Shown here one piece after another: positions 2,287-63,653 of a stretch of DNA of 64,000 bases; position 1 is the first letter of the stretch, and each line of letters starts with the position of its first letter. Source of the DNA: Hirudinaria manillensis (lineage: Eukaryota > Annelida > Clitellata > Hirudinida > Hirudinidae); contig CM067537.1 of the NCBI GenBank assembly GCA_034509925.1, positions 5,881,001 through 5,945,000 of the forward strand, read 5' to 3'. A model generated the notes under the pieces. The model had not been told where the DNA came from. It made no database searches and saw only the letters and a list, made by a program, of their open reading frames with translations. A program made the translations under genes and the position numbers.

Positions 2287-3263
2287 ATGTCAAATGATAA
2301 AAGCGACCCCCAAAAAGGCATGGAGAGCCTGAAGCACTCAAACAATTTCAAGTGCCAAATCAAACACTCCTCATACATAAGCTCAATTCAACCCGGATTG
2401 CAGCAGCCACACTTTGGCGTATTTTCAGGTGATACGGTATGCTATAAAGTAACATCAGAGAGCCATTTATTTTATTAATTTTAATGACATTGAATTGCTG
2501 GCAAATCCACAAAACAGATGAATTAACGCACGCAACAGACGAACGTCTTTACAACAGCAGTAATAACAACGACAAGGATTGAAGATTTCACTCATAAGTC
2601 CATTCTTCCCGAGTATTCTCCAAAAACAATCCTTTCGACATTTACTACTTCTTAAGAGATCAACAAGTCAGGGACAACTCGGAAAAGTAAGGATTTGCTA
2701 AATTAAACAAATTCGTTCTGCTCATTATGCAACATTAATAAATCACTAATTTTGTACTATTGTGAGAACATCGTATCTCCGATGATTGATAATATTTACT
2801 ATTTCGCATATGATGACCAGACCAAAGGGGGGGGGGGGTCCTAATCAGTAGCGATGGTATAGGCTGGCTGTGCACGGGACAAAGTAGCACTCATTTAAGA
2901 ATAGGCCCAGTCGGCTCTCATGACCAATTAAGCTTGTTATAGTACTAGTCGACTCAACACGCTGGCCAGATAAAAGGTTGCCAGCAACGACCCGCTAGTA
3001 ATTGCTACGAAGCAGCACAAACGTCTGGTCGCTACTTTCGTTATCGATACAGTTTGCTGAATAATGGACATTCCGTATTGTTATTTATATGTATTCATCT
3101 AAAATAACTTACATCTGCAGATGAGAGGAACATAAGTTCTAGGAACATTTTCGGCGAAGAATGGAAAGATTCAGAAGACGATTTGAATTTGCTTTCCGTA
3201 AAGTCGTATGCCACAAACAAAGATACAACGTGGCCGGTTATCCTCGAAGCAACATCAAGATGA
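2287..3263 (+). CDS. possible two-exon small upstream ORF preceding the SMS-like gene
   Basis: An ATG at 2287 opens a 47-codon frame ending at a good donor (TTTTCAG then GTGATA, exon 2287-2428, phase 1). The next acceptor, CATCTGCAG at 3118-3120, starts an exon at 3121. Joined in phase, the frame runs a further 47 codons to TGA at 3261-3263. That TGA overlaps the ATG at 3260, a possible start of the lipid-synthase frame (ATGA overlap). No family is recognised. It could be a leader ORF in the 5' untranslated region, an alternative N-terminus separated from the main frame by a further intron or a frameshift, or chance. The joined frame and overlap are seen directly; any function is unknown. Confidence 0.25.
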
Positions 3264-9100: not shown

Positions 9101-9477
9101 TGCTCCTACATATCTTCACCTGGCTAATAACCTTGGCTGCCATGTTTTTCATTTTAATGGGAGAAGCTCATTATTCAATCGACGTCCTAATTGCATTTTT
9201 CCTCTCCGGCCTTTACTTCAACTACTACCATACTTTGGCCAATCACCACAACCCGCTGAACGAGTCCTCACTTCACACCCCTCCGGCCTCCTGGATGAGA
9301 AGGCTCTGTTTCATCAGGCAGCGAGTGAGGATATGGGTGCCCTTTTACAGCTATTTGGAAAAGGGAACGGGCGGTGCGCCCTTACCCCACGAGTACGAGT
9401 CGCCCATCACGGCCTTCTTGAGATTCGTGCGAGGTGTGCGTCACAGAGTGATCATAGGCAAATCTAGGCAAATCTAG
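3161..9477 (+). CDS. sphingomyelin synthase family protein (SMS/SMSr type), 391 aa
   Basis: Probable multi-pass Golgi, ER or plasma-membrane enzyme moving a phosphocholine or phosphoethanolamine head group to ceramide. Coding exons: 3161-3678, 8179-8296, 8733-8883, 9089-9477; junction phases match and total 392 codons. Family motifs are in order: PLPD near residue 133, RRFF at the start of exon 2, [10 protein letters not shown] (motif D3) in exon 3 and HYSIDV (motif D4) in exon 4. The catalytic His-His-Asp triad is therefore intact. About six membrane segments are visible, the first [18 protein letters not shown]. An in-frame TAG at 3140 limits the start to ATG 3161 or ATG 3260. No SAM domain is encoded here, unlike vertebrate SAMD8/SMSr, but an upstream exon cannot be excluded. 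Intron 1 is 4.5 kb. Head-group specificity cannot be read from the sequence. Confidence 0.93.
6060..6180 (+). mobile_element. (TAA)n tract with conserved tail, copy 1
   Basis: About 26 TAA units (6060-6138) are followed by a tail from 6138 to 6180 that includes CATTTATATAGCGCCGTG and ends TACAGGGGCGCT. The same tail and TAA tract occur in the opposite orientation at 59143-59208, with only a few differences over 43 bp. A shared non-simple tail attached to a simple repeat indicates a dispersed element, for instance the 3' end of a SINE or LINE, and not an independent microsatellite. The tail contains AGCGCC and GGGGCGCT, which can form a short hairpin. No coding capacity is present. It sits in intron 1 of the SMS-like gene. 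Confidence 0.6.
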
Positions 9478-16534: not shown

Positions 16535-19500
16535 TGATAATAACAATAATATTAATTACATAACATAACAGTTTAATCACCTTAAACCTTACTCACTCAC
16601 CCACGTATTTCTTTTCCGATTCAAGTTTCATTTCAAGGATGTTTTCCAATCTTTCGATCTCAGACTTTTGTTCTGCATTTTTGTCCCTGTTAAATTTACA
16701 AAACCACCCATCAAAAGATTTATTTAATAAATTTACAAAATAAATAAATTACAAGTTAATTTAATTAATTAGTTTTTTTCGAATGATTGCAACTAATATG
16801 CATTTACAAAACAAGTACGTAATAATTAATAATAATAATTAATGATTATATCCATATTATTTGTCACTTTAAAACAAAGCAAAAGTACCTGAGCGATTTC
16901 ATGAGGCTTTCATTTTCTTTGTCTTTTGCTCTTAATTTCTTGACGGCCGTGTTCAGTTGAAGTTGTTGTTTGGAAAGTTTTTCACCTAAAAATAATAATC
17001 AAAATAATAATAAAAAAATATTAACAAAAAAAAATAATCAAAATAATAATAATAATAACAAAAATAACAATACTAATAATAAATCAAAATAAATAATTGC
17101 TCAATATTATAGAGAGATTAAAAAAATTCAAATGACATTTTCAAGTGCATGATAGTCAGCTTTGCCATGCCATGCTATGTACTTGCTATATACTTGCTAT
17201 ATGTACTTGCTATGTACTTGCTATATGTACTTGCTATGTACTTGCTATATGTACTTGCTATGTACTTGCTATATGTACTTGCTATGTACTTGCTATGTAC
17301 TTGCTATGTACTTGCTATGCCTGTGCTGTGATGGCATTGCATTCTAGCAATTATTGTCTGTCTATTTAGCTCACATACGGCTTATGTATGGCCCTATGTT
17401 TCCGTGCAGGTGTGCGCGCATGTGCTTGTGCGAGAATTTTATTCATGCCCTAACTCGACAGTGGCAAACTTTACTTTAATAAAAATAATAGCAATTATAT
17501 AATTATTTAACATGATGGGCACAATCACTCTATAACAATGCCGTCATCAACATCATCATCATCATCATCATGCAAGCTGCCATAAGTCCATTGCGTGAAA
17601 CAAATAATGACATGACAAAATATTCAAATTATTCATTAATAATTGTTTAGCAAAACATTTTATAAAAGTTTGAAAAAGTTAAATTAATAAACCTTCAGCC
17701 ATTAACTCTGCAATTGTTTGTTCTTTTTCTTTAATGAACTTCTCATAAATGACATTGTTTGACCTAAATTTAAATTATAATTAATTTAAAAATTACAAAA
17801 ATTATTAAACTATATTCTAGCGAATATAATAATTATATTAAAGCCAATCTGCTGCACTCAACATTGAAACCAAAGAACGACAAAAGATGCCCGACAATTA
17901 ATTGAAATATTAAAAAACAAAACAATAAAAATTAAACATTTGCCCACGAAACATAGTAATAATAAAACGACAATAACATCTAATAAAACATAATATATTT
18001 TTTAATCCATAATATATTATAATATAATATAATTAGATAATAATTTCTAAGCGACAAAAGATTAACTTTTTCTCTGCTTCAACATCCAGCAAGGCCTTCC
18101 TAATCGCCTCCTTTTCCCTCAAAGCACTTTGAAACCTCTTCTCCGAGTCCCCGATTCTCCTCGTGAACTCGTCCGACAGCGACTTCAGGTCTTCTTTTTC
18201 TGCTTCGTTCACGCTTTCCTCTTGTAGGAGTTGACTGCAAACGTATTCTTTTTATTAAACATTTTGTTTTATTTTCTTTTATTTATTCAACAAAACAACT
18301 TTAATTTGTTATAATATTATAATAATAACACCTGCCACCTGTTATGTACTTTTAATAATTCATACAACTCATCCCTGAGTATTATCCACCACACAGTGGC
18401 CACTCACTCATCTACGAACTAGCTCCCCCAACCCAAAATTATTATTATTGAAGCTGCCTAATTATTAGAAAGGCCATGAACTTTTTGTGATCCATAATTA
18501 ATAATTTAATAATTTAACTCATAATTATAATAAATGATTTTAAACATTTAATAATAACAACAATAATGAATTGATCACTTTTTAAGGATTGCATTGCTTT
18601 CTCTGAGATCCACATTTTCCTGACTCAACTCGAGCACCTTCTTCTCCCTAACCTCTAAAATCTCCTCCAATTCCAATATTTTCTGAAAAAATGAAACAAA
18701 ACATGCAAACACAACAACAACAACAAGAAGTACAGGAAACATCACAATCAAGACATGCAAACACAACAACACGAAGTACATAAAACAATGTGATACAAAA
18801 CATTGCATCAAGACATGCAAACACAACAACAACAACAAGAAGTACATGAAACATTGTGATACAAAACATTGCATCAAGACATGCAAACACAACAACAACA
18901 ACAAGAAGTACATGAAACATTGTGATACAAAACATTGCATCAAGACATGCAAACACAACAACAACAACACGAAGTACATGAAACATTGTGATACAAAACA
19001 TTGCATCTGCATCGTATACTCAACTTCAACTTCAATCGTATAATTAAAATGAAATCAGCACAAAACATTTTAAAACATCAACAAAACCTTTGCCATTGAC
19101 TCGTTTTCGTTTGATAATGAGGTCAATTGGTGCACAACATCTGCAAGCAATGTATGTTTTAATTAAACATTCTGTTAAAAATGTCAAAAGTCAAAATAAA
19201 TGAACAAAATAACATGTAAAGAAAAAAAAATGAAAATCTCAATCAAACTCAAAATTCAATACACAAAACAAACAAACAACAATAACAATCATATAATTTA
19301 ATAACAATTACATTAATTTATTAGTATTTAATATAACTATAAACTATTAATATAAATTATTACAACCCAATAATAATAATAATAATAATAATAACCCGTC
19401 GTCATGCTCTTCCGATGTCTAACGTCGACAAATCCACTCCTGGAGCTGGCAAAGTCGATGCTCACGAAGTCCTCTCCGTTCCTGCTCTGCAAACTCTGCC

Positions 19501-22569: not shown

Positions 22570-25201
22570 TCAAACAGTAGATAATTTATTAAGACAAATC
22601 TTTTCACTGTTCAGGTCGCGATCTCCCGACTCCTCTTCTGAAACCATTTGAATGTTGTTTTTTGTCGGATGTTGATTTTTCTCCATTTCTACGGAGGAAG
22701 TGCTCCTAATGTAACTGTCCCATATTGCTTTCGCGCGACCCAGGAAAATGACGCACAAGTCGGCAACGAGTTGTATTACTTCTACCAATGTAATTACTGA
22801 TATGCCTGGAAATGAATGATTTGTATTAATTTTCAGAATTCATTAATGCATGAATTATATCTATCAATTTCAGAAAATGGTTATGGTTTGACAGGGTTGA
22901 ATGAATTTGAATGGCAAATATTATTAAATAAATTGCGATGCGGTGCATTTACGGCATCTGGATCCGCTTTTGAGAATAGGGATTGCCCAAATACTACTTT
23001 TACATAATACCAGATTAACAACCTACCAATCCAAAGTCCCATTTGTCCTCCTATGTCAGATATCAATCGTACGAGGTCGTAATCTGGTGATTCAGTGGTT
23101 TTAATTATGTTGTTGTCAGCGATGTGAACATTTACTCGAGAAATCCTACTTTTCACCTCATCAGAGTAGTTCTTGCCATACCTGTAAAGAACAAAATTAT
23201 TATCGGTTTTGATAATAATTATAAGGTAATAATTCTAAAGTAATAGTTATGATTCTATATACCTTTTCTTGAGAGCCTGCCTTCTTTCGCTCGACAAAGA
23301 CTCTAGGTATCTGTCTACAATCGAGTAAAAGGCACTGTTTTGCTTGCGGTTATCCGGGAGCCTTGAAATGCTGTAAGAGGTATCATAGACAACATCTTTG
23401 CAAGGGGGATAGCATCTGCAAGCCTCGATGGATTCAGGGTTTTTGACCGTCATTCTATCGTGTACTTCCCTTCGACATCTTGTTCTATTGTTAAATTCTT
23501 CTGCCAAAGACCGAACTTCTTTCTCACAAAATGTAGATTCTTCCATAGCTTCTGGTTTCCGACATTCTTCAGAAATCATCGGCAGTTCCAAGCAGAAAGG
23601 TAGGTTTTTATCGAGGCTGATGTTTGAAGATTTTTTATGAAATAATTGTTTGTGCCTTCGATGCATATTCTTGTCGAAACTTGAGAGTTCTTCTCCTTTG
23701 TAAGGCATGCGACTATCAATGCATTTACAGGCTCCGGCTATTTTGGATTGTATGCATTCATTTTGGCAGGATATGAGAGTATATTTAAAGCGAGACTTGG
23801 ATTTCGACGCTTCCTTGTATTCTTCCTCTTCTGTGCAATTTCCATGAGGCAGAGAGACGCGTACATTTTGTCGAGCCTTGATGCCAATGCTCACCGAAAA
23901 GCCGCTCGGGATGTCATAACCATCGGTTGTAAAGTGAGGAATAGAATTTTGAGCGTGTATTACCACCTTGGCACCTTGATTGCTGGCCAGAGCGGGATCA
24001 GATTGTATTAGACCAGGTATCATCGTCTCCATCTCACCAGATCCCTCGAAAAGGTTTAAATTTTAGTGTATAAATGACAAAAAATTAAAAACGGGCGTGG
24101 ATTCAATTTCTTTCAATAGCCACCTTGGACAATTGTCCTGCACTGCCCAGGAAGAGAAGAATTGTGAAGCCGTACTCGATGCCTGCCAGTCTTGTCGACT
24201 TGGAACGGAGAATCCGATGAGGTTCAAAGGTGAAGCAGTTGAAGAAATAGGGATCGAAAATTTTAACAAATGTCTTCGAGATGTTGCACTCGTCTTCCAT
24301 GAAGCGACAGAAAACAATAAAATCTTCAGCTCTGAAAAAAAGATTGAAGAGAGTTAACCCAAACTAAACACGATTATCCTCTTGATTTTATATACACAAA
24401 TATAATAAAAATAAAGCTACTTTATTCCAGCTTTTGAAGCCAATTGTGGCCCTAGATTCGCCACAAGCCCGAGTCTGGACATGATTTCGAATAAGTCTTT
24501 CATAGAAGGCACTGGACCACCGCTCCCAAGTACAGCTGATCGCATGAGGACAGAGAGAGTCGATTGGAACCTGAGATAGCTCTTGCGGAAGTCTTCCTCG
24601 TCTATGTTTCTTCTTGAACGCTTAGAAGTAGCGTTGCCTCTTTGTTTTCGAGTTTTGGTTTCTAAACGACAAAATGTTTGTAATATTGCATCCTAAACTT
24701 AATGTAGTCTCCAAAGTTTACACAAACTGTGAAAAGTTACGTTCTCCTCGTGGCTGTCCTCTTCTACCGTGTTGAAGACTTTCTCCAGTTTTTCCACGAC
24801 GATGAAATCAAGATGATCAGTGTTGCACAAAGTCACTGAAGGAAACGGAACTGGATTTTGAACAATTTCAACGTTTACCTTTGGAAGTAGAAGATGAATC
24901 AAGATTAAAAGGTTTTTAAGAGGCAATGGAAATTGTATACCTTTTTAGGATAAGAGAAATATTGCTCTAAGAGATTTCTTCCGGTGTAAATAAACATAAA
25001 GACAGCGAAAACAAAAACAGCAGACCAAAAGAGTCGATTGGCCATCGATCGTGAATTAATAATCCTTGGAACTCCGTGTAGAGACGTAATTCCTGCAAAT
25101 GTTTCCAGGGTCGAGTGGACATCGGAGCACAAAGTCGGTTGAGCATTTGCTTGGCCACAGGAACATCCAGAACTTTGGAAATCCAAACATTTGGTCATCA
25201 T
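22570..25201 (-). CDS. DEG/ENaC family amiloride-sensitive sodium channel, 677 aa
   Basis: Plasma-membrane trimeric cation channel subunit; relatives include epithelial Na+ channels, acid-sensing and peptide-gated channels. Seven coding exons: 25201-24941, 24878-24728, 24661-24421, 24331-24124, 24044-23263, 23181-23027, 22805-22570; phases match and total 678 codons. Visible features are the gating His-Gly motif (residues 42-43, LHGVPRI), TM1 around residues 56-76, FPSVTLCN just after it, NCFTF in the extracellular domain, a Cys-rich region in exon 5 and the pore motif G-I-S (about 600-602) heading TM2 (ISVITLVEVIQLVADLCVIF). The G-x-S selectivity filter is therefore intact, and both termini are short and cytosolic. 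The start is the first of two tandem ATGs. The gating stimulus cannot be deduced. Confidence 0.94.
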
Positions 25202-28174: not shown

Positions 28175-31100
28175 TACAATGTGAGGGGAAGAGTTGAATT
28201 TTGAGAGTTCAAAGGTGGACTCGATGAGTTTGAGTACAAGTTGTGAGGAGATGATGTTCTGAGGTGAAAGTGCTTCTTCTGGAGACAATGACTTTAAGCT
28301 GAACAACTGCACGGACCTGAAATGACAGCAATGAATTTGCATCTAACTTTTATTTTTTAATATTTATTTATTATTTTATTTATTTTTTATTTATTACAGT
28401 ATTAGGACCTTTGTCCCAAAAACTATGTATTAGAAAATTTGCATTGAAATTGTGTAGTAATACTTTCTATTGAAACTATGTATCAAAAAACTTTGTATTT
28501 AAGATTTTGTATTAAAGGTTTGTATTAAAACGTTATTTTTTCAAAAGTACATATTAAAAAAAACTTTGCAAAATTCACCAGGTGTCAGTGTCTGCCACGA
28601 TGTAGAGAGCTGCATCAGCAGGATCGTTTAAAATTTGACTCTGAAAGAAATATTTCGACATTGTTTTCATTACTTTGGTGCTCCAACGTTTTTGAGTTTT
28701 GCAATAAAAACAAAGACCTTCAAAGATGTTTTGAGATCCTGATGGAGTGCAGGATAAGGGGAGGAGAGGAACGATCTGTCTGAGGTTCCGTGGAGGACGA
28801 ACTCTGGGCTGAAACTTTTGCAGAATCCTCCGAGCATGGACCTGCCGAGGTTCGAATCTTCGAGCAGCAACCTCCTCTCGACGACTTTGACGTCCGCGTC
28901 CTCCGACAGGGGCACCGTCGTGAGTTTCTTCATCGTCGAGTTCCTGTAGTGAAATGATTTTTGCAAAATGAGTTTATTTTTTTTTAAATAACAATAATAA
29001 TAATAATAACAACAACAACAATAATAATAATATTAACAATAATAATAATAATAATATTAGCACTGTTTTATTTCAAGCAGGTTTTGCTTTATATTTCGAA
29101 TTTGTTTCCATATCTTTCCTTATCTGTGAATTTAATTTTGAGGAATTTTCAAATCAAATAAACTCATAAACAGTCAAAAAAAATGAAACTCCGATCGAAA
29201 GAAACATCCAATGACCTTATCTTCGTGTCAGAAGCAAACGTTTCGGGTTCAGAAGGAACGTCGGTCGTGGAAGCCGCTCCGATGAGGTGCAACTTGAACA
29301 GCAGCTGGTCCTTGATGGGACCCTCGGGCAGGCAGTCGGGCTCGTTCACGTCGAGGGTGCAGGCCGAGAAATCCCCCTGGCGACCTTCGGGGTCCTGCCG
29401 ACTCGGCTCGGACTCCTGAGAGGAATCGACGCTTTGTTTTCCTGCAGAAGAATCGTCCTCGCAGATTTCCTGCATGATTTCATAAAGTTCTTCCTCGACA
29501 TCAAATTGAAGGAGGGGAAGAAATCCGTTCTGGACTTTGCATTCGTTCGTCAACTTGCAAGGCAGAGAAGTCCTCTGAACCTGCGATTCTTCTTTTCGCA
29601 CGCTCAGAACTTCATCTTTGACTTCACAGATCCGACGACTTTTAGAATCACGACCGTCGAACTTCGAAGCGGCCTCCTTCGGCACAGGGAGAATCGACTG
29701 GAAATCTTCATCGTTCCTGACTAGTTTAACGTCGTCTCCGTCGAAGGGATTGCCGGGAGACTCGCCGCACGTCGAACTTTGCCGGTCTTGCCGAGAATCG
29801 CTGAGGACCGAGCCGTCGTCGTCATCACGTCGCGAGCAGAATTTGCTCGACTTTGTAAATCTATCGTTGGATGTCGGTCGAACGACGTTTTCAAATCTTT
29901 TGAGTTTATCCTTCGACGACCGACTGGCATCGACTTCGCTCTCGGAAAATCCCGAATCTTTCGAGAAGTTGCTCTCCGTTGCAAACGATGAGAGAGTGGA
30001 ATCCTCGGGCAGGGTGGCAGCTCCGCCGTTGTCCTCCTCCTCCTCAGGTTGCGAAGATTCCATCAAGTCGTTGCAACGAAGGAAGTAACTTAGAATGAAA
30101 AGAAACTTTTTGACTAGATCGACTCTCTTCCCTACCACGACGGTCTTCGAAATGCAACGTGGAAAGCCCACGGCTCCAAAGAGGTCGCTAAAAGAAAAAT
30201 GGCGGATCAATTGAAGCTCTAATAAAAAAGATTTGAGCACAAAAAAGAGGAAGTAATGAATACATTTCCAAATGATTATTAAACTAAATTAATAATAATT
30301 TTAGCTTTAATTATTCCTTAATTATTGTTATTATTATTATTAAATTATTCTTTCGATAATCATTTTCTTGATAAGTTTGAAACTTGCCGTAGTTGGGAGA
30401 ATAAGGGACTCCTAGAAGATTGATTTCCTGATGAATTCATCTGTTAAATAATAAATTAATACTTTTACTCTGTAATAAATATAATTAAAATCTTAAATAT
30501 ATAAATCTATATATCTTAAATATATTAAAGTAATAAACATAATTAATATCTTATTCAGTTTTAAAATTAATTAATATCTTATTCAGAATCACGTGCCATT
30601 GTGTTTCTTGTCACACCACAATTTCATTCATACAAATGAGAACAACCACAATAACAACAACAATAGTAATAATAACAACAGCAACAACAACAATAGCAAC
30701 ACTAAGATGGTGTTGCATTTGGCCAGGATTTCAAAGGCTTGGAAGTCACAATAAAACAGTAAAACATGTAAATGTGTAAATTTGCAATTGAATTAATAAT
30801 TATAACAAGTTTATAAGTAAGAATTGCCTATTATAAATAAATTGGAAAATAAATAATGGATTTAATTTAAATGTGGATTTTAAATTGTTAAATAATAATT
30901 AAAATTCATTATTAAAACACAATATCTTTGAAAATTTTCAAATGTTTTTATAAAAAGACGTACTTCAAGCTTATCGGTCTCTGATAATGAAGTGACCCAG
31001 GAAAGGTGATGTGTCAACACTGCAGTCAATAAACTGCCCAGAAAACTGTAAAACATTTCAACAATAAACTTGAAATATAATTAAAATATAATTAAATAAA

Positions 31101-51200: not shown

Positions 51201-52543
51201 TGAAAAGACTCCTAAATATGTTATGAAGCAAATGGAAATTACCGTGGCGACGGAGAGAGTAATTGACCCGAAATCAGTGGTTAAAGAGGTCAGTGTCTTG
51301 ATTGGATGACATATAAGATTGCAGGTGCCCGCGGTGGCGCCATCAGTTGATGAAGATGGAAAGACATCGATCAAGTGCTTGCCTGCCCTGCCGTCATAAG
51401 TCATGCAAATTATATGCGACCGGTCTCGACGCGTTCGTTCGGATGTCCGCTTTCGTGACTTCGGAAAGCCGTCTATTTCGATGGTTAGATTGCGTCTTAT
51501 GCGCTGCTTTGAAGGACTAACTTTTTAAGTCTGAGATTTATTTTATGAGTTGAAAAAAGAAGAAAAAAATTTAAAAAAATTCTTCTGAAAACTTCAATGC
51601 CAGGCGCAATTTCTTCGATCAATCACGAATCAGTTCGTCTACGATTGATTCAGTCTTAATTCAATCAGCAGAGATTTCAATCAATTAATTCAATTCAATA
51701 ACAAAGCAATGTTCGGGGTTGAATGATCTCATGAATTTCAGGCCACTTCCATGTCGCAATTCCTTCCTCAAGATGCCGCCATCGACAGCAGGCTGCAGTG
51801 CTCTGCTAATCAAAATCCTATTGGTCAAAATGCAACTACGTCACAGGACAGCTACATCCTCATTGGCCAGGACGAGACACGCCCTCCAGCGAACCTGCTG
51901 AATTCTATTGGTTTGAAATCACGTGATGTTGTTATTATGTCGTAAATAATTTATTACGCCGTCTAGAATTCGAGACGATAATTATTGTCCGAATTTTTTC
52001 CGGGCGCTGAATTAACGCAGATTGTTTTATTCTTAAGGAATTTCTTCCAATGGATACTTTATGGAAGCTGATGCCATGAGGGAGATGATCGAGGGAAAGA
52101 GTGCATTCATGGGTGGCACACCCCAATCCACCCTCCAATCGGAGTTGAACCAGCATTCGTCGTATCAACAACGACATCAATCCCTCCAACAACAAGGTCG
52201 TAACAACTGGTACAACAACCATCAGACATTATTCATGCTCGAAATTTCACCAAACGAGTACCACCATCACCACCATCATCATCACGACCACGTCGATTTA
52301 TCAGCCTCTTCATCGTCTCCGTCGTCGTTGTCGTCGTCATCGTCTCCCAACTTAACATCCAACAACAGAAGTAGCAACAATAGCAACAAACCCTGCACTT
52401 CTCCAAACCACGACATTCACAACAACAACAACAACGCCATGGTCGATGACGTAACGGACCAAAGATTTGCAACTGATGTCATAAACGGTTGTCAGGAATC
52501 CGTTAAGAAAAGATTGATGGAGGAGGTCTGGCAGGAACTATAA
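41460..52543 (+). CDS. NFI: nuclear factor I (CTF/NFI) transcription factor, 705 aa
   Basis: Sequence-specific nuclear transcription factor binding TTGGC palindromes as a dimer. Eleven coding exons: 41460-41525, 42753-42908, 43483-43674, 45451-45634, 46733-46798, 48242-48334, 48743-48931, 49770-50012, 50245-50498, 51742-51910, 52038-52543; 706 codons in one frame. The DNA-binding domain covers about residues 23-195: [76 protein letters not shown] and [10 protein letters not shown]. The four conserved Cys of the domain are present (QVC, IDC, TDC, GLC). Exon 6 encodes [13 protein letters not shown], the family's post-domain motif. The C-terminal half is family-divergent, with Gln-, Ser- and Asn-rich stretches and an eight-His run. 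Exon 1 is the least certain; its 22 codons resemble known NFI starts only loosely. Confidence 0.94.
44513..44618. repeat. (GAC)n/(GAT)n microsatellite in an NFI intron
   Basis: GAC units pass into GAT units in the intron between exons 43483-43674 and 45451-45634. A complementary (ATC)n tract lies at 44075-44110 in the same intron. Together they could pair in the pre-mRNA. Confidence 0.88.
47411..47503. repeat. (TTA)n microsatellite in an NFI intron
   Basis: Long TTA run with a few TTG units. It gives false poly-Leu, poly-Ile and poly-Asn frames on both strands. Confidence 0.9.
48067..48222. repeat. (AAT)n/(AAC)n microsatellite upstream of NFI exon 6
   Basis: About 50 AAT/AAC units end some 20 bp before the acceptor of exon 48242-48334, where the branch point and polypyrimidine tract should lie. 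The minus-strand poly-Leu frame across it is spurious. Confidence 0.9.
49314..49440. repeat. (GAAT)n/(GAGT)n microsatellite in an NFI intron
   Basis: Imperfect GAAT units interspersed with GAGA, GAGT and AAAT lie between exons 48743-48931 and 49770-50012. Confidence 0.88.
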
Positions 52544-52547
52544 TAAA
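52542..52547 (+). terminator. AATAAA overlapping the NFI stop codon
   Basis: The TAA stop (52541-52543) is followed without a gap by AATAAA. If used as the polyadenylation signal, the 3' untranslated region would be extremely short. The next gene begins only about 300 bp downstream, which makes an early signal plausible, but later A-rich candidates exist. Confidence 0.3.
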
Positions 52548-52687
52548 TTATGTTAATATATTCATAAATTATTATAATCACAACGCATTGAAACGTTTTA
52601 AGTTAATTGGTACATTTGATTCGTTTTATTTATAAATACGTGCATGAAACGAAAGAATATCGCGCATTAATTAAACATTTAAGTTTT

Positions 52688-52736
52688 TTTGCTTTGTCGT
52701 CATAATAACATGATATTTGTTTACAGTCGTCGAAAA
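52688..52736 (+). promoter_or_regulatory. conserved upstream block of FHA copy A
   Basis: This roughly 49-bp block matches 58305-58352 upstream of copy B: TTTGCTTTG, then CGTCATA, then TTTGTTTAC, then GTCGTCGAAAA, with few differences. It lies about 105-155 bp before the ATG. TGTTTAC is a forkhead-type core, and CGTCA is a half CRE. Conservation while adjacent A+T-rich sequence drifts suggests promoter function, though recent duplication alone could also explain it. Confidence 0.45.
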
Positions 52737-52841
52737 GAGATTTCTTTAAGTTTTTTTTTTAAACAAATAATTAATAAATAATAATAATAATAATTAAATT
52801 AAATTATATTTCAAACATCTGGTCGATAAATTCGAGTCAAA

Positions 52842-53451
52842 ATGTCATTCAGAGTGAGAGGAATGCTGACAAATGAAATCGAAACTTTTCACTTAAATCC
52901 CGTTCTGACGACCATCGGTAAAAATGCTAACATCGTACTAGAGGTAAACAATATTAAGAAATAGTAATTATATTTCAGGTAATTGTATTTCCGTATTAAC
53001 AATCTTTTAAACATATAACATTAAATATATCATTAAACATTATATTAAAAATTTAAACATTAGACATGTAATTAAACATGTTTCCAATCTCTTAAATCAA
53101 AAATTAAAATTCTAAAACTGATTCAAATGGTTGTCGCATATTGTGAGTTTCGAAACGAGAATAGCAGTAAAAATCTTATATAAAACATAATTCGAAATCC
53201 TAAATAAATTCTGTCCAAGACTGAAATAAATAAGTTCCATATAAAAGCTTATGCAGTGCAATAACCACTCAAGGCCAATGAGTTCAGCCCCCATGATGCC
53301 CCCTAACCCTAACCCCAAACAAATAACTTTTATTATTATTATTATTATCATCATTACTATTATTATTACTACTACTATTATTATTATCATTAATAATATT
53401 ATATTATTATTATTATTATTATCAATATTATTGTTAATATTATTATTATTA

Positions 53452-53507
<56 letters not shown>

Positions 53508-56500
53508 CCTTGAATGGCAAGAGACACAAAAAGCACACGTGGTTCACAGGGTGAAGGCTTGGAAGACTTGCATTCCATCATAAAATTCAGCGAAGCTGAA
53601 CAGGTTTTCCACATCCTGGACATCAAAACCTGCCACGGAACGTTCGTCAATCAGGATAGACTTGACAGGTGCTTCAGAAAACTGAACAACGGAGACACCA
53701 TTCAATTCGGAAAGAGGGAAAACCCTTTGACCTTTCTGGTGACCTCATCGCCACCTATTAAGCGCGAAGTCATCATAAATGAGGTTCATTTTCTTCGTAC
53801 TTTGTTATGGCGCTGATTGAAAGGCATAATTATCTCAAAGCAAATGAAGAACTACTAGAAGGCGGCGTGTTGATCTTTCTTCGAATAATTTACCTTATTA
53901 ATAAATTAAATTAATAAAGAATATTTTTTTATAATTATTGAATTCTTCTCAGGAAAACAAAGGCCCAATATCCGTTGAGGAATTGGACGAGTTATTAGAA
54001 TGTGCATCGCTATTGTGCACAAGTTCTCTGGAAATGCCCTCGGAGGGCGTCGGCGATCAACGTCAAATGCCATCAGCTCAACAAAAACCTCTCTTCCAAT
54101 GGGATACGACGCTACAGAAGCAGCAACAACTGCCGTTGCAACAACAGCCACAACAATTACCGTCGCAACAACAAAAACCAGAACAGCAAGTAGGTCAGGG
54201 GACAAGGAACGAAACGACCCCAGGGGATGCTGGGCCACCGACATCGGGAAACATCCAAAGTGAAACTCCTATTGGACTTGGAGATGGAAAGTCTAGGGTG
54301 AAATACTTTGTTAAAGCCATATTTATTGTTGTTGTTACAGTACCAATTGTCGCCTGATGCTCATCTCCTTTCAATTGTTACCTTAACACTTGTGTGTCTG
54401 AGTTAACAAAACTTTCAGTTTCTACTGTAAGGATACATTTGTAAAACCAAAACATTTATTATTACTGAGCACCAATCAAAGGTTTGTTAATTAGTTGACC
54501 CGTCACTCTAATATTCTCTGATCTTAGAGTATAAAAGTAAACTTTTCACGTAATATTTATTTAAACGGCGCCATCTGGCAATGCTTATAAATATGGAACT
54601 GTTGTAATGAATAGTGCCGAGGGATGGCAACAATGCCTACTAATATTATTTGTTTTAATGTAAACGATAACCAATATTTTCTGCATATTTTATCTTGATA
54701 TTTTCCATAAATTGTTTGTAAATTCATGTTCATTAGTTTATGTCTTATGTACTAACATGTACAGATATGAATGTATGCCATCATTGGCACAAATGTACCC
54801 CATGGCTTTTGAACTTTCGTGCAAAAAAGGATTTTAATTCCTGCCAAAAGATATTTAAATTTAAATCATCATAGAGACATTGAAGGTAAATTCTCACAAA
54901 AATTTATGACAAAATTTCGACAAGACTTAGAAAAAGAAAGCTTGGGATACACTTGTATCCTCTCATCATGCATCCAAGGGTTAACTTAACTCATAATTTC
55001 AAGGAGTTATTAAGGCATATAACATTGTTATCAAAGTTTGTTTCCAAAAGCTCTGAAAATTCATGAATGCAAGTTAAACTCGTGTATTCATTGAAACTGG
55101 GTTGATTAAGTAAAGCACTCACCGTGTTTTATAGTTAATACAATTATACAATTATAATTATTAGTTATTACAAATAAATTATAACGTTAAGACATTTGAT
55201 GTTATTCTTGGGACCAATCTCACTTGTTATTGTGCCACCGTGACAGGGTCGTCCAAAGAAGAACGTCAAGGAAGTCATCGAAAACATCGAAACGCAGACC
55301 ACAGTCAAGGAATTGTTGCTAAAAGTTGATGAATTCGTACGAAGGAATGCCCAAATGAGCGAAACTCTCCAAAAAATGGAAGAAATTATCCACTGTAAGG
55401 TTAATAATATATTTGTATTGCTTCATTATTGATATTTAAATCGATATACTTTTCTGTTTGAGTAACATCAGGTTTATTTTATTTTATAACAAACTTAGTT
55501 TCATCCCTTACATCCTATTGGCTATAGATCTGTTTATTATGGCTCGATTGAGTAGTGAATATAAATTAATAAATTGATTTATTAATGCCGTACGTTATGC
55601 CTCAAGAACATGATGGAAATTTCGATAGACTTTGTCAGTAATTAGTAGCATATTCTTGTAAAATGAACAGACCTAATTAGTAGTAGATCTATTCTTGTGA
55701 TATGAATAATCAATTATTATATGAAATATGAATTTTTAACCATTCAAGGATGAATCACTTCGAATCATGGCCAAAGCAGCTGATAAGACGAGGAAGGAAA
55801 ATGCGTGCCTGGAAGTACAAAAGGAGGCCCTACTAAACAGCGTTTGTGCACACGAGAGTTCAAAATTTAAATTAGCACGTCTTCAATAAACAAACAATTT
55901 ATTAATAAATAAATAAATCGTTGTAACACTTTGTGCTCGCCAGGTTAATAGAAAATATGCCAATAGTGACGGTTGTAGGAGAGAGGATTTAATGATACAG
56001 AAGGACATGGAAAATATCAAACTCCGAGTGGTATTCATACGTGTTTATATCCGCTTGTTCCATCTGCAAGGAATATGTGTAACATGAAAATTCATATTTC
56101 ATATTCCAGCAAGTGAAACTGAATAATGATAAGCTGGAAGAATTGAAAAAGTGTGTGGCAAGTTTAAACAAAGAATTGGAAAAACTGAAGCATGAAAATG
56201 CTCAGCTCAAGAAGGCATTTATTTATTATAAAAAAAATTATAATAAATTATTTATAAGTATTTATAAATTATTTATTTTGAAATTTGCATTTGAAGTTTT
56301 TAATGATTTTATTTTATTAGCTTTTATTTAAAATGGCTAAACACATAAGTTGAGCACTAATCGAAATAAGTTGTATTTCTTTCAGTAATTGGGCGATATT
56401 CGATTAATATTTTAGATCTTATTATTCGACGACATTTCTTTGCAAAAATAAACTGCACGTAGACTTAGCTATTACACGAGGAATAACTTTCTGATATTTA

Positions 56501-57500
56501 AATATTAAAGTGCCTGAAAACAGCGCGTGAAGAAATAAATGACGTAAAAAGATCGGCTGATCAGTTTCAAAGAGCAGAAATGCTGGGACGAGTGAACGTG
56601 GAAAGGATGGTGAAACAAGTGATTTTGTCGACATTCTTCTTCTTTCATTTATTTATTTATTTATTTATTGGGGAAATCATTATTCATGGTCACATCTGGT
56701 TAACTATTCTTTAACCAATAATTTGCATTTGTTTATAAGCATCAAACCTTTAATTTTTTTTCTCAATCAGTTGGAACTGGTAAAGAAACCCGTCTTAGAA
56801 ATAATTAACGTCTTCTGCCCCGAAAAGAGTTCAGGAAAAGCGGGATTTCCAACCGCTAAAAACGTCTGCCAATTCAAAGGCCTGACTTCAAGTAACGCGG
56901 TCTCTCAGGGTGTTTCCAATCCTATTGAATCTGCAAGAAAGGAAACTTCCGAAGGAAACAAAACTGACGATGGATGGTCATCCAATCAATGCTTGGAATA
57001 CGGATTGGCACAGGTTCCAATCATTGACAACACGGACGAATTCATTAAAGCTGCCGACGAGTGCATCACCAAAATGAAGGAGGTTCGGTCGTTTTTAACT
57101 CAGTTTGTTAGTAATTAATTAATTAATTTTTAATGGATCGAAGACTAACACTTTGTGATAAAACACTCTTTAATAAATCGTTTTCAATCAAGCAAATAAA
57201 TATCAACTTATGAGATAAGCGATGATACATGTATTTCGACCTTTAAGAAATCATCCATGTATATTGCTATGGACAAATCAGTAAAGTAATACATACTTAG
57301 AGAACCTCGTAGTGGCAACCATTTCGAATGTCGTGATATATGTGAATCGTAAAAAATATTTATTTCAGTTGAAATGTCAGACGCAACTTTTCCAGCAAAT
57401 TGAAGCAGCAAATGTCGATGAAAAGCCACAACCTACAACAGTAACTGCACCTGCTCCTGTGAGTGCTGAGAAGAAGGAAGTAAAACGAAAGAAAAAATGA
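52842..57500 (+). CDS. FHA-domain coiled-coil protein, tandem copy A (FHAD1-like), 556 aa
   Basis: Ten coding exons: 52842-52943, 53550-53783, 53953-54297, 55247-55399, 55749-55841, 55944-56030, 56110-56214, 56511-56618, 56771-57082, 57369-57500; 557 codons in one frame. Residues 1 to about 105 form a forkhead-associated domain (TTIGKNANIVLE, then LHSIIKF, HGTFVN, NNGDTIQFGKR), closest by eye to FHAD1. The pThr-contact positions are altered (Lys for Arg, Glu for Ser, His for Asn). Exon 3 is Gln-rich; exons 4-8 are charged, coiled-coil-like helices starting with GRPKK; exon 9 has a conserved QCLEYGLAQVP segment; the C-terminus is basic (EVKRKKK). Exon 7 has no GT donor, so I used AAG|GCATTT as a GC donor. 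If it is not used, translation continues to a stop near 56331 and the protein is truncated. The function is unknown; FHAD1 itself is poorly characterised. Confidence 0.82.
53330..53505. repeat. (TTA)n microsatellite in FHA copy A intron 1
   Basis: A long ATT/TTA run with ATC, ACT and TTG interruptions ends about 45 bp before the exon 2 acceptor. It is absent from the corresponding intron of copy B, so it expanded after the duplication or was lost in B. Confidence 0.9.
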
Positions 57501-57628
57501 ATGAACTTTGAGGATTACAATTTACTTTGTAATATTTTGAAATGATTTATAATGACAAATGGGATTAGTTTCAGTTGTGCAATGTCAGGTAGCGCTAGTA
57601 ATATAACATGCAAGAATATATTTCTACC

Positions 57629-57634
57629 AATAAA
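57629..57634 (+). terminator. candidate polyadenylation signal of FHA copy A
   Basis: AATAAA 129 bp beyond the stop codon, the first canonical hexamer after copy A. Confidence 0.5.
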
Positions 57635-58304
57635 CACTGCACGTTGTCACCATCACCATCGCAGACATTCCCATCATTATAATCGTTGTACATGCACATC
57701 ATTAGTATCCTTATCATCGTTCCAATAACAACCCCTACAAAAGAAATGTCAAACATAATTCAGAATAATAAGATCACTTAGTTTAACGCTGGCGAATCTG
57801 GAGGGTCAGCCAGGTTATTTGGCCTATAATTTAATGTTCATAAGTGACATTCATAATAAAATCCATGCCTTATCAATGATTGTATTAACCTTTGCTACCT
57901 GAAGCTATGAAATATTAGAATTAATTAAAAATTCAGGGAGTACAGTAATGCCATTAGTTAAAGGTTTATTAAACAATTTAATCAAAATATCCTTAATCAT
58001 TGAAGTATTAAGAACAATTGATAGAACAGCAGTTCATAAAGTGATTAGCACACAATCCCCGGAACACTGTCGAATTGGGATCACATGTTGTAGTTTTATG
58101 TGTTGTTTTATGCTTATAAGACACTTCTTTAAAGTAATAAAATAAAATAAAATAAAATGTTATTAATTTAAATAAATTAATTTATATTTATATAAATGTT
58201 ACTAATTTGTAAATACGTTCGTATAAAGAAACATTATCTCTCACTAATTAAATCTTTTCTTTGTGCAACTTTTGTTGAGATGTAATTTTAAGCTTTTTAA
58301 GTTC

Positions 58305-58352
58305 TTTGCTTTGGCGTCATATTAACCTGATTTGTTTACTGTCGTCGAAAAC
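58305..58352 (+). promoter_or_regulatory. conserved upstream block of FHA copy B
   Basis: Counterpart of 52688-52736. It contains TTTGCTTTGG, CGTCATA, TTTGTTTAC and GTCGTCGAAAA in the same order and nearly the same spacing, ending about 125 bp before the copy B ATG. Confidence 0.45.
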
Positions 58353-58475
58353 ATATTTTCTAAGAGAACGGTAATTTTGTAAGTTTTTGAAAATAAATAA
58401 TTAATTAAATAATAATCAATAATAATAATGAAATCATAATTATTTCAAATGTCTTGTTGATAAATTCTAAACAAA

Positions 58476-61400
58476 ATGTCACTCAGAACGAAAGGAATGT
58501 TGACAAATGAAGTCGAAACTTATCACTTATGTCTTGGTTTTACAACCATTGGCAAGATTGCTAACATCGTACTGGAGGTGAAAACCATTAATAAATAATA
58601 ATAATAATAATATTTCAGGTTATTTCTTTTTAAATATTAACATTTGATAAAATTACGCTTATAATTATATTTTTCTGCCAATACGACAGTTGCAAAGAGA
58701 ATAATTTTAAATAAATTTATGATCCAATCACTGGGTGAATTATTTAAATGTCTGACTGATTTTCTAAAACACGAACCAGGGCGAAGGCTTGGAAAACGTG
58801 CATTCCTTGATAAAGTTCTGCGAAGATGACCAAACATTCCACATTTTGGACGTCAAAACCCACCACGGAACGTTCGTCAACCGGGAGAGACTCGACATGT
58901 GCTTTAGAAAACTGAACAACGGTGACGTCATTCAATTCGGAAAGAGGGAAAAAACTTTGACCTTTCTGGTGACCCCGGCGCCACCTGCTAAGCAGGAAGT
59001 CACCGTGAATGAGGTTCGTGTTTTTTTTTTCAGCTTAAATTGCTTCACAATAATTTGAAAGTAAATTAAGAACAATTTGTGACAAACTACAAGACAGCAT
59101 TTTTTTTTATCGTTTTGAATATTTGACCTTATTTCATGTTTTAGCGCCCCTGTAACTCACGCGCACGGCGCTATATAAATGACATATTATTATTATTATT
59201 ATTATTTAAAATAATAACAATTCGATTCGCAGTAATCCCAGGCCTTCCTCTGATGATAAGAGTTTGGGATTAGACTCTATTTGTTACGATTCTTGACACC
59301 ACTTGACTTTGCCTTCCCGCTGGTTCTCTTTCTTTTTCTCGTCGTTCTCTCGTTAGACTCTTTCTTGCCATACATTCTTTTACAAAACATTGAATTCTTC
59401 TCAGGAAAGCAAAGGTACGATGGCTGTTTGTGAGTTGGACGAGTTGTTTGAACGTGCATCGCAAATGTGCTCAAGTTCTTTGGAGATGCGATCGAAGGCC
59501 GTCGGCGATCAACGGCAAACAAGCTTTCCACCAGTTCAACGGAAAACTTCCTTCCAGCGGGCTGCATCGCTACAAAATCAACGACTTTCACTCCAACGAC
59601 AACAGCAACGTCTGTCGTCGCAACGAGAGCAGCAACAAGAACAACAATTGATTAAGAACCAAAAAAATGAAACAACAATTGCCGACGCCGGATCGCTGGC
59701 ATTGGTGGACCTTTACAGTGAAACTCCGACAGATGTTGCAGATCTTCCGGATGAATCGTATATTCCGGTGAAATCCTTTCTTTAATTTCATTTTATTTCA
59801 AGTGATAAATGTTGCACTTGTATCGTTACAAAAGTTCAATAAGCTTTCAAAACTAAGTATGAACATCTATTGCAATTGTAATAATTATTATCGAAAACGA
59901 AATGAATAACTAACTCAATTAGAGTGTTGAATGAGCTAATAATTAATACAAAACGGTAGTTAACATGATGTTTAGTAGTAAAAATGGTAGTTAACATAAG
60001 CATCGATGAGGAAATAATTTCAGCAATTGTTTATGCCCCCGTCGCGAGGTCGTCCAAATATGAAAATTAAAGAAACTATTGAAACTATCGAAACGAACAC
60101 TGTCGTTAAGGACTTGTTGTCCAAAGTGGATGGTTACGAGGAAAGGAATGCCAAGTTGAACGAGATTATCAAAAAGATGGAAGCCGTTATCTACAGTAAG
60201 GTTAATAAAATTTTAGTATTGATTCGGTAGTAATGTTTCCAATTTGCCAGTATTAATGAGGATAGTTTTATGTCTTCAATCTAAAGGCAATGAGTTTAAG
60301 TTTTTCCCATAATGGATTGATTAGTGAATATAATTAATAGATAGATCCATATTTTGTCGTAATCGAATCTTTGAAATCTAAATACTTCTCTGATAACAGT
60401 TATTTGTGCAGATTATTTATTCATATAATACGAACAAACCTTTTAACCAATCAAAACGCGTGTGTTGTAAATTGAACGTAATAATAAATCTATTAATAAA
60501 TATCTATATTATTAATCAATCAAGGATGAATCGCTACGAATCATGGCCCAAGCAGCTGATAAGACGAGGAAGGAAAATGCGTGCCTCGAAATACAAAACG
60601 AGGCTCTTCTAAACAGCGTTTGTATCCATGTCAATCAACAATTTAAATTAACAGATCTTTAAAAAAAACGTGTAAAAAGTAATTCATTAATAAAAATAAA
60701 TCGTCACTTAAGTTTGCACTCGCCAGGTGTCGAGAAAATATGCCGATTGTGACGGTTGTAGGAGAGAGGACTTAATGATACAGAAGGACATGGAAAATGT
60801 CAAACTCCGAGTGGTATTCATCCTTGTTTCTTTCCATCCGTTCTAACTTAAATAAATTAAATTAAATTAAAATAAATGTTAAATCTTCCAGCAAGTACAA
60901 CTGAATGTGGATAAGGTGGAAGAGCTGAAAAAGTGCACGGCATGTATGAACAAAGAATTAGAAAAACTGAGACAAGAAAATGCTCAATTGAAGAAGGCAT
61001 TCGTTTCCAATTTATTAATTAATTTTAAATTTGTAAACACGTAATTTGAATATTCATTAAATATATTCTTTACATATAAATAAATATATACTCTTTCAGT
61101 AATTAGGCTACATTCGATTAATGTTTTGTTTTTATTATCTGAAGACATCTCATTGCAAGAAATAAATTGCACTTAGAATTACTTGGATATATTTTTATAT
61201 TTTATAATTAATATATCTTTTATAAAACTATTTAAAGGTGCTGAAAACAGCGGGTGATGAAATAACCGATACAAGAAGATCATCTGATCAGTTTCAAAAA
61301 GCAGAAATGCTGGGACGGATGAACATGGAAAGGATGTTGAAACAAGTGATTTTGATAAAATTCTTCATTTATTTATTTATTAGGATTAATTACTGCATAA

Positions 61401-62070
61401 TTACGTTTGTTTGCTAGTTATTAGAGGAAGATTTTTCTCAAGTGTTGCCTTCAATTGTTTTACTTTTAAACAGTTGGACCTGCTAAAGAAACCAGTCCTG
61501 GAAATGGTAAACATTTTCTGCTCTGATGACAAATCAGGAGAAGCGGGATTCCAATCCATTGAAAACATCTGCCAATTCAAAGGCATGCCTTTAACAAGCA
61601 CTCCTTTGACACATCAAGGTCTGTCCATTCCGAACGATGCTGCACGAAATGAAAGTAAATCTTCCAAGGGAGCGGTCGAAGGAAACAAAACTAACAACGA
61701 ATGGTCATCCAATCAATGCTTGGAATACGGACTGGCACAGGTTCCTGTCATTGACAACACGGACGAATTCATCAAAGCCGCCGATGAGTGCCTCATCAAG
61801 ATGAAGAAGGTTCGGTCTTAACTCGGTTTAATATTAATTTAAAATAAATTTGTCTAAAATCTCAGAATACTATTTCCAATAGTATGATATGCGTATATGG
61901 ATCGTAAAAAATATTTAAGGTGATTTTGTTTATTTCAGTTGAAATGTCAGAAGCAACTTTTCCAACAAAGTGAAGCAGCAAATGTCGATCAAAAGCAACA
62001 ATCTTTAACAGTATCTGCACCTGCTGCTTTAAATGCTGAAAAGAAAGAAGCAAAACGAAAGAAGAAATGA
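58476..62070 (+). CDS. FHA-domain coiled-coil protein, tandem copy B (FHAD1-like), about 580 aa
   Basis: Paralog of copy A with the same ten exons: 58476-58577, 58780-59013, 59405-59767, 60024-60200, 60525-60617, 60727-60813, 60892-61002, 61238-61345, 61474-61809, 61939-62070. All phases match. The FHA domain reads TTIGKIANIVLE, VHSLIKF, HGTFVN, NNGDVIQFGKR, sharing the altered Lys/Glu/His contacts of copy A. Exon 3 has its own Gln/Arg-rich expansion. Exon 4 starts eight codons earlier than in copy A (QLFMPPSR before GRP). Exon 7 may use a GT donor (GCATTC|GTTTCC, 580 aa) or the GC donor in common with copy A (578 aa). Exon 9 carries an eight-codon net insertion relative to A. The basic tail ends EAKRKKK. 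No frame damage is seen, so this copy looks fully functional. Confidence 0.86.
59143..59208 (-). mobile_element. (TAA)n tract with conserved tail, copy 2 (inverted)
   Basis: On the minus strand this reads as a short TAA/ATA tract followed by TGTCATTTATATAGCGCCGTG and an end TACAGGGGCGCT, matching the element at 6060-6180. It lies in intron 2 of FHA copy B and has no counterpart in copy A, so it was probably inserted after the gene duplication. Confidence 0.6.
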
Positions 62071-62102
62071 ACACTTTGAGGATTGTTTCTTTTTTTGAAT
62101 AG

Positions 62103-62216
62103 TTTATGAAGATAAATAAAATTATTATTAATAATATATGTGTCCTGTAAGTACAGGTATCTGTATTTATGAAGATAAATAAAATTATTATTAATAATAT
62201 ATGTGTCCTGTAAGTA
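62103..62216 (+). repeat. 63-bp tandem duplication with duplicated AATAAA
   Basis: The segment GAAGATAAATAAAATTATTA through GTGTCCTGTAAGTA occurs at 62108 and again at 62171. Each copy contains AATAAA (62114 and 62177), so FHA copy B has two candidate polyadenylation signals within 110 bp of its stop. A (TA)n run follows to about 62236. Confidence 0.85.
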
Positions 62217-62236
62217 TATATATATATATATATATT

Positions 62237-63653
62237 TTAGAACATGCGTTGCCATCGTTGACTTACACTTGATATGAACCATCACTACAATCATTACCAT
62301 ATTCAACATTAACCATCGTTTCAATATCAAATCACTCTCTCCAATATCTTTCATACCATATTGATATTGTTTAACAGTAATTCCTTTGGAGACTTAACTG
62401 TACCGTTGGACCGATAATTTTCTATTGGTGATGTATTAAATTTTACAAGTTCATAATAAAAGCGATGTTAAACTTTCATTGTTCTTGGTTAGTTCAAGTA
62501 AATTTGACCTAGGGCTGTACGACAACCCTAACTTGGTTGTTGGGAGAGATGAAATATACATATCTTACGCGTCGGAAACACTCGAAGCTATTTGCTTCCG
62601 TTCTGATGACCGGCCTTTTACATATCTGTGCTTTCCAGATAGTAAACTATCTCTTTGCCTCGCTGAGTAATTATTATAATTAAACTATATCACATCCGAA
62701 GTGTGGGAACTATTTCTTTTTATGTAAACTTGGAAATACATCTTATATTTTCCATCTTTGATATCTTTGGTCCGCGATGTAAACAATAGGTAAGCAGTTA
62801 TTGGATAAGAAGTTTTGATTTTGAGCTTTTCCAACCGGTAACTGAATATCGGGAGTTAATTTTTAGGAAGGGTTTTTCAATGTAGATTCTTTTTCAAAAT
62901 ATTTATCGGCAAAACGGGTCCGTGCTTCGCCATCAATAATGAATTTCCCTTTAAAGAATTTTTTTTATTATGATCGCAATTCTATACTTCTACTATTTTT
63001 AGGTAATTTTGAGTCTAACCTTTTCTGTTAAGAACTTATTAGAGCTGAAATGCCTTCAGTGTTGTTGATCCAGTTATTTTTGCTCATAAAATCATCATTA
63101 TTAGAATTAGAGATAGGTATTTCATAATTTATGCAATCAATTGATGTTGTATTTCCTCTCACCCTTGTCATTTAAATGTCAAACTTTCTCATCCTTCTGT
63201 ATTTGTGCTGTAATTGGCAACATATTTCTTGCACTTAACATTTCTTCAATACATTCACATTTTAGGATGAATTTCCCAAGTTACATTTGGAATGAGTTCA
63301 TTGCAGTTCAGAGAAAGCCTACATCAGGTATGTTCTGCTCATAATAATTGGTTTTTAGGCAAATAGCATCAACATTTATCATGCCAACTGTTAATTCTAT
63401 ACTGCTAATGTAGTGGGTCGTTCATGGTCAGCCATTGAAAAAAATTTGGTTATTGATTGTTGTTAATTAGTAATCATGCATTTGTGTAGTGCATGCATTT
63501 GCTGTTCTACCTTATTCTATTGCTTTTCAGTAAATACAATGCTTTCAAACTAATAAATAAGTTTAATAGAAGAATCAATCATTTTTATAACAGACTCAAG
63601 ATGGCCTTCACTACCATTAAATGATGAATTGAAGAGGTTGCCTTTATGATAAC
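62237..63653. other. mostly non-coding DNA with weak exon candidates
   Basis: An open frame at 62479-62670 (+) has ordinary amino-acid composition (LVVGRDEIYISYASETLEA within it), and a segment at 63266-63327 (+) is bounded by TTTTAG and GTATGT. They could be exons of a gene extending to the right, but no family was recognised and they could not be joined with confidence. Confidence 0.35.

Follow-up and report, generated by a model that had tools for sequence, protein, structure and literature searches.

A 64,000-nucleotide stretch of the genome of the leech Hirudinaria manillensis (contig CM067537.1, positions 5,881,001 to 5,945,000; hereafter called the window) carries two neighbouring genes, here termed copy A and copy B, that each encode an FHA domain followed by a predicted coiled coil. 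The pair arose by an old duplication of a whole gene together with its upstream region and has remained under constraint. Copy A (window positions 52842-57500) and copy B (58476-62070) reside head to tail on the plus strand, and their exons and splice phases correspond, as in tandem duplicates. Each was modelled by hand through matched splice sites as a series of ten exons, and the predicted proteins of 555 (A) and 577 (B) amino acids are identical at 370 of 554 aligned residues. An earlier note on this DNA had proposed that a whole ten-exon gene was duplicated in tandem together with its upstream region, and the proposal is borne out by these models, by the protein identity and by homology between the 5ʹ flanks.

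Neither model contains an internal stop codon, and an AG acceptor is present at every intron. All nine introns are in phase 0 in both copies, and eight of the nine donors are GT, the remaining one being a GC donor at intron 7 (a GC-AG intron) in A and B alike. Both copies also have an in-frame TAA 15 nucleotides before the ATG, so the coding frame ends there and has no upstream extension. Seven of the ten exons have the same length in both copies (exons 1, 2, 5, 6, 7, 8 and 10, with 102, 234, 93, 84, 105, 108 and 132 nucleotides, respectively), which agrees with the equal lengths and identical phases described in the earlier note and adds exon 7 to its list. The three unequal exons, namely exon 3 (345 nucleotides in A, 363 in B), exon 4 (153 and 177) and exon 9 (312 and 336), differ by 18, 24 and 24 nucleotides, all multiples of three. 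The G+C content is 0.44 for the coding sequence of either copy, 33% for the window and 0.29 for the intergenic stretch.

In copy A, the FHA domain (Pfam match at residues 23-88) begins in exon 1 (52842-52943) and is completed by exon 2 (53550-53783). Exon 3 (53953-54297) encodes a linker rich in Q and P, and exon 4 (55247-55399) starts with GRPKKN, a match to the AT-hook motif that is below threshold. The coil region extends over exon 5 (55749-55841), exon 6 (55944-56027), exon 7 (56110-56214), which precedes the GC donor, and exon 8 (56511-56618). Exon 9 (56771-57082) includes the segment QCLEYGLAQVP, and exon 10 (57369-57500) encodes a basic C-terminus with the sequence KRKKK before the stop codon. 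The corresponding exons of copy B are located at 58476-58577, 58780-59013 (with the Pfam FHA match), 59405-59767, 60024-60200, 60525-60617, 60727-60810, 60892-60996 (exon 7, again with a GC donor), 61238-61345, 61474-61809 (exon 9, with QCLEYGLAQVP) and 61939-62070 (exon 10, with KRKKK and the stop codon).

FHA is the sole Pfam family above its cut-off in either protein (36.1 bits in A and 38.0 in B; cut-off 20.7), in agreement with the earlier statement that only this domain could be recognised. Matches to Yop-YscD_cpl, DUF3450, SlyX, DUF7653, DUF3222 and the remaining Pfam families were all under their own cut-offs and were rejected. Heptad patterning, evaluated by a simple in-house contrast score and not by a published coiled-coil predictor, marks residues 228-406 of A (a score reached by none of 200 shuffles) and 234-420 of B (3 of 200). 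The FHA, linker and C-terminal regions of both proteins lack such patterning, as 118-192 of 200 shuffles reach their scores. Within exon 9, where 69 of 104 residues of A are identical in B, a run of 15 residues, WSSNQCLEYGLAQVP, is the same in both copies, and profile and structure-sequence searches with this exon yielded no recognised family. MIA40 was also considered for the C-terminus of B and was set aside, since the matches to three chains are weak (E 0.023, 0.12 and 0.5) and the C-x8-C cysteine spacing is unlike the CX9C motif.

Estimates by the Nei-Gojobori method over 554 aligned codons (bootstrap ranges in brackets) gave a dS of 0.49 (0.39-0.59), a dN of 0.205 (0.176-0.236) and a dN/dS ratio of 0.42 (0.33-0.55), the ratio showing purifying selection averaged over the pair; per-branch rates would require an outgroup. 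The best-conserved exons are 5 (28 of 31 residues identical) and 6 (24 of 28), and the least conserved are 3 (57 of 114) and 4 (27 of 51). Non-coding homology was evaluated by comparing local alignment scores with those of 100 shuffles. Seven of the nine introns (2, 4, 5, 6, 7, 8 and 9) score above all shuffles, intron 2 only barely (35 versus 34), whereas introns 1 and 3 do not, and common splice sites explain part of these scores. Intron 7 reaches 99 (z 13.0), compared with 23 to 48 (z -0.4 to 8.1) for the other eight. Thus, the drift previously described for exons 3 and 9 is confirmed and also involves exon 4, which had gone unnamed; the drift described for the introns is real but incomplete. 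Intron 1 spans 606 nucleotides in A and 202 in B, in part because A carries a long TTA repeat (53330-53505; 59 units by TRF), whereas B has no repeat of this length. The homology between the copies starts approximately 165 base pairs (bp) upstream of the ATG and, as read by eye, fades right after the stop codon. A comparison of the 800 bp past the stop of A with the 1,330 bp past that of B gave a score of 28, against a shuffle mean of 28.4. Overall, the similarity of the copies greatly exceeds chance, with repeat families D4-D14 being 71-88% alike.

These measurements bear on two explanations under which the window would not hold two working genes. An assembly artefact, or two haplotypes placed in tandem, had been named by the earlier note as the main case that could overturn its claim, and we found nothing in its favour. 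A dS of 0.49 together with strongly diverged introns exceeds allelic divergence, and both copies lie on one contig of 9,582,500 bases. In addition, extracts of the report on the H. manillensis genome give an average HiFi read length of 18.73 kilobases (kb), about twice the span of the pair (PMC10671345). The artefact is in effect ruled out, and we regard it as extremely improbable. Somewhat less far-fetched, but still very unlikely, is that one copy is a decaying pseudogene whose frame is open by chance or through gene conversion. Synonymous divergence is uneven among the ten exons (p 0.0015, or 0.068 without exon 3), which might reflect patchy conversion. However, the outlier, exon 3, includes a Q-rich stretch and aligns poorly, and the introns are far more diverged than the exons, although conversion should homogenise introns as well. 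Against decay, neither copy has acquired a stop codon or frameshift at a dS of 0.49, exon lengths differ only by threes and splice sites are intact. Judging from the sequences, both copies are probably functional protein-coding genes.

Relatives of the pair were sought in the same assembly (GCA_034509925.1; 148,429,096 bases in 23 contigs), the sole animal genome compared. A six-frame search with A at E values up to 10 gave at least 21 matches, of which 20 fall in the pair and one on contig 5 (E 9.1e-4). With B there were at least 23, comprising 20 in the pair, the contig-5 site (4.4e-4) and two weak matches (0.139 and 0.744). No third copy occurs among the matches listed for either search. 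Genome-wide, 16 FHA sites exceed the Pfam cut-off: two in the pair, one in the contig-5 gene and 13 others, eight of which we take to be kanadaptin, NIPP1, SNIP1, nibrin, two FOXK proteins, SLMAP and AGGF1.

The contig-5 gene (approximately C5:6051828-6052243, minus strand), whose FHA domain is the nearest to the pair among the matches listed for this genome, starts with MRGFLKNGS, and its RGFLKN resembles RGMLTN in A. As judged by eye, an intron interrupts its FHA domain at the same alignment column and in the same phase as in A and B, whereas eight of the 13 other sites, inspected in the same way, are either open at this position (six) or split elsewhere (two). Its identity to the pair is 28-30% and is restricted to the FHA domain, which is nearer to the Pfam consensus (56.1 bits) than those of A and B. 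Searches of 19 kb around this domain found no match to other parts of A or B at E < 5, and a home-made exon chain for the gene was implausible, skipping FHA exon 2, and was not used.

Pairwise FHA scores and a tree were computed from a 15-row set in which the human FHAD1 row is a provisional sequence and not a database entry. Setting aside its sister copy, A scores highest with the contig-5 gene (55.8 bits) and the FHAD1 row (54.3), followed by GarA (37.4), DUN1 (33.5), CEP170 (32.3) and SLMAP (29.6). For B the order is the FHAD1 row (52.8), the contig-5 gene (51.2), GarA (36.2), NIPP1 (34.7), SLMAP (33.9) and CEP170 (26.9). We conclude that A and B belong to the same FHA sub-group as the contig-5 gene. 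They are probably FHAD1-like, a label that makes no claim of FHAD1 orthology. FHAD1 also has its FHA domain at the N-terminus, ahead of a body rich in coils. It differs from A and B in that pocket residues are replaced in the leech proteins and their C-terminal part is unrecognised.

The FHA domains of both copies depart from the canonical binding pocket. Phosphothreonine is normally held by an Arg after a Gly, a Ser, and an Asn before a Gly. In the 15-row alignment, both A and B have K for this R (TTIGK), E for the S (LEDLH in A, LENVH in B) and H for the N (CHG and HHG), while the pocket Gly and His are retained. CEP170, the contig-5 gene and the provisional FHAD1 row likewise lack the Ser, having Asp instead, and in the contig-5 gene the Asn is replaced by F. 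Among these rows, the change from R to K is thus the only one unique to the pair. The simplest reading of the shared replacements is that the pocket changed before the duplication. With these three phosphothreonine-holding residues changed in A and B alike, we expect the domain to dock independently of phosphate or in an altered manner.

Taken together, the reading we prefer, although we place it a little short of an even chance, is that an old duplication including the promoter produced constrained paralogues encoding a coiled-coil scaffold that resembles FHAD1, serves motile cilia or the sperm flagellum and docks through an altered FHA domain. The gene pair with its matching exons, the purifying selection acting across the pair, and an FHA domain ahead of a heptad-patterned coil are established by the data; the rest of the reading goes beyond them. 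Each protein would form a coiled-coil dimer or oligomer that displays its N-terminal FHA domains as docking modules and carries a basic C-terminal tail. By nearest resemblance, this scaffold would be a divergent and shorter relative of FHAD1. FHAD1 staining in fallopian tube epithelium is described, in extracts of PMC13096173, as confined to motile cilia, and extracts of PMC12979858 list FHAD1 as one of 14 central-pair screen candidates lacking localisation data. Loss of FHAD1 in mice lowers sperm motility, according to extracts of PMC10984166. By analogy, we favour a ciliary or flagellar scaffold role for the leech pair.

Several observations weigh against this interpretation. The contig-5 gene scores higher with the FHAD1 row (72.0 bits) than the pair does, and the FHA tree has a 12-row fork that leaves A and B, the contig-5 gene, CEP170 and the provisional FHAD1 row unseparated. 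The best matches in the PDB are the FHA domains of mycobacterial GarA/Rv1827 (A, E 0.0066; B, 1.4e-4), which indicates ‘FHA’ and no more. Next, among or near the animal structures, is the solved SLMAP FHA domain (A, E 0.025; B, 0.0012). SLMAP likewise combines an N-terminal FHA domain with a coiled coil; in the leech gene that we read as SLMAP, however, the FHA intron sits elsewhere than in A and B. Prediction of a structure for exon 9 from the two-row alignment gave a mean pLDDT of 40.9 and no usable fold. The basic tail and the GRP motif would be equally compatible with a nuclear protein. Mouse FHAD1 has 1,420 amino acids, far more than either leech protein, and Fhad1-null mice are fertile, which suggests that the flagellar role is mild even for FHAD1 (extracts of PMC10984166). 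The earlier suggestion of an FHAD1-like gene is thus plausible for the FHA domain, for which the contig-5 gene and the FHAD1 row give the top scores, but the tree does not decide it, and the protein length, the higher FHAD1 score of the contig-5 gene and the GarA structures count against it.

The main competing explanation, which we consider unlikely but worth keeping in view, is that the pair encodes nuclear FHA coiled-coil proteins, equipped with an AT-hook-like GRP motif and a basic tail, whose site of action is chromatin or the kinetochore, perhaps during spermatogenesis. The C-terminal KRKKK is kept in both copies, and weak matches to AT-hook (11.6 bits, in A) and CENP-F_leu_zip (16.0 bits, in B) point in the same direction. 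However, neither score reaches its curated cut-off (17.4 and 34.5 bits, respectively), each motif is absent from the matches of the other copy, and short basic tails are common. Membership in the CEP170 family of centrosomal FHA proteins, to which we give very little credence, draws on the finding that CEP170 is the best solved structure for the related contig-5 gene (E 2.5e-12). CEP170, a coil-containing protein of the centrosome, shares the FHA domain with the pair. That gene also scores 58.5 bits with the CEP170 row, but A and B score CEP170 below both the contig-5 gene and the FHAD1 row, and their matches to the CEP170 structure are poor (E 0.027 and 0.5). The CEP170_C domain is absent from the Pfam matches of A and B and was unmatched genome-wide, a weak negative as no control matched.

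Two non-coding elements have been preserved along with the coding exons. The first is the 5ʹ flank, a putative promoter or 5ʹ untranslated region, which spans 164 bp in A (52678-52841) and 180 bp in B (58296-58475), close to the 155-170 bp of upstream homology that had been noted before. Its local score of 139 (shuffle mean 29.8, maximum 42, z 26.1) exceeds that of every intron under the same scoring, and on this ground the flank looks constrained. The copies agree in 141 of 158 aligned columns, although gap-tolerant alignment flatters such figures. The strength of this conservation, and with it the constraint, calls for caution: when 89 bases of the A flank were searched against the genome, they matched only themselves and missed even B, so that this search says nothing about other copies. 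Both flanks contain TTGTTTAC (at 52717 in A and 58332 in B), which we take to be a forkhead-like site; it occurs 11 times on both strands of the 64-kb window and is only a lead here.

The second element is a block within intron 7 (56364-56470 in A, approximately 61078-61184 in B, both plus strand) that accounts for the intron score of 99, against a shuffle maximum of 45. In each copy it comprises tttcag, a TAA and an AATAAA (at 56447 and 61161), and the two blocks agree in 73 of 87 aligned columns. A genome search with the block matched at the two copies only, the B match (E 2.1e-16) spanning 61092-61181. The acceptor-like site, the TAA and the AATAAA, together with the weak GC donor of this intron, suggest a candidate alternative last exon. 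The abundance of AATAAA in such AT-rich DNA, with 10 AATAAA or ATTAAA sites in the 792 bp that separate A from B, weakens the case for an alternative 3ʹ end. Other identities for the block were rejected. No Rfam match was found at E 1 over 52500-62300, and neither strand folds better than its shuffles (z 1.22, -0.75, 1.09 and 0.38). As a coding exon, the block has one frame that stays open in A and in B; however, the encoded peptides are different and, by eye, compensating one-nucleotide indels would be needed. It is possible, though we think doubtful, that the pair represents a leech or perhaps annelid FHA family in which the pocket was altered before duplication and a regulated alternative 3ʹ end in intron 7 was kept by both copies. 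Such an end would toggle between the full protein and an FHA-plus-coil form that lacks the QCLEYGLAQVP segment and the basic tail. Just past the stop codon of B, a 63-bp unit occurs twice (62103-62228; 92% alike) with an AATAAA in each (62115 and 62178), and the polyadenylation signals of this copy may thereby be duplicated.

Elsewhere in the window, a 66-bp minisatellite at 18763-19007 (3.7 copies, 97% match) is open in several frames. Two open stretches on the minus strand at 22881-24062 match the amiloride-sensitive sodium channel family (Pfam ASC), and another at 29164-30288 (minus) matches the folliculin-interacting protein middle domain (FNIP_M). An open stretch at 9070-9477 (plus) matches PAP2_C and, with one at 3143-3682 that has no Pfam match, presumably belongs to a sphingomyelin synthase gene. 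Outside the window, a second NIPP1-like FHA stretch at C6:9874472-9874600 is possibly a paralogue or a fragment of the NIPP1-like gene on contig 11 (C11).

A survey of open-licence literature for leech FHA genes, annelid FHAD1 and lineage-specific FHA coiled-coil sperm proteins found nothing relevant by title or the start of the abstract, which fits a pair that is undescribed. If the ciliary or flagellar reading is right, the two genes would offer a compact natural test pair for the retention of duplicated scaffold genes, in which a constrained 5ʹ flank and a likewise constrained intronic element are shared while introns and linkers drift. According to extracts of PMC10984166, phosphate reading by FHAD1 and the identity of its partners are open questions. 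Given these questions, an additional family that resembles FHAD1 but has a non-canonical pocket in its FHA domain would be useful.

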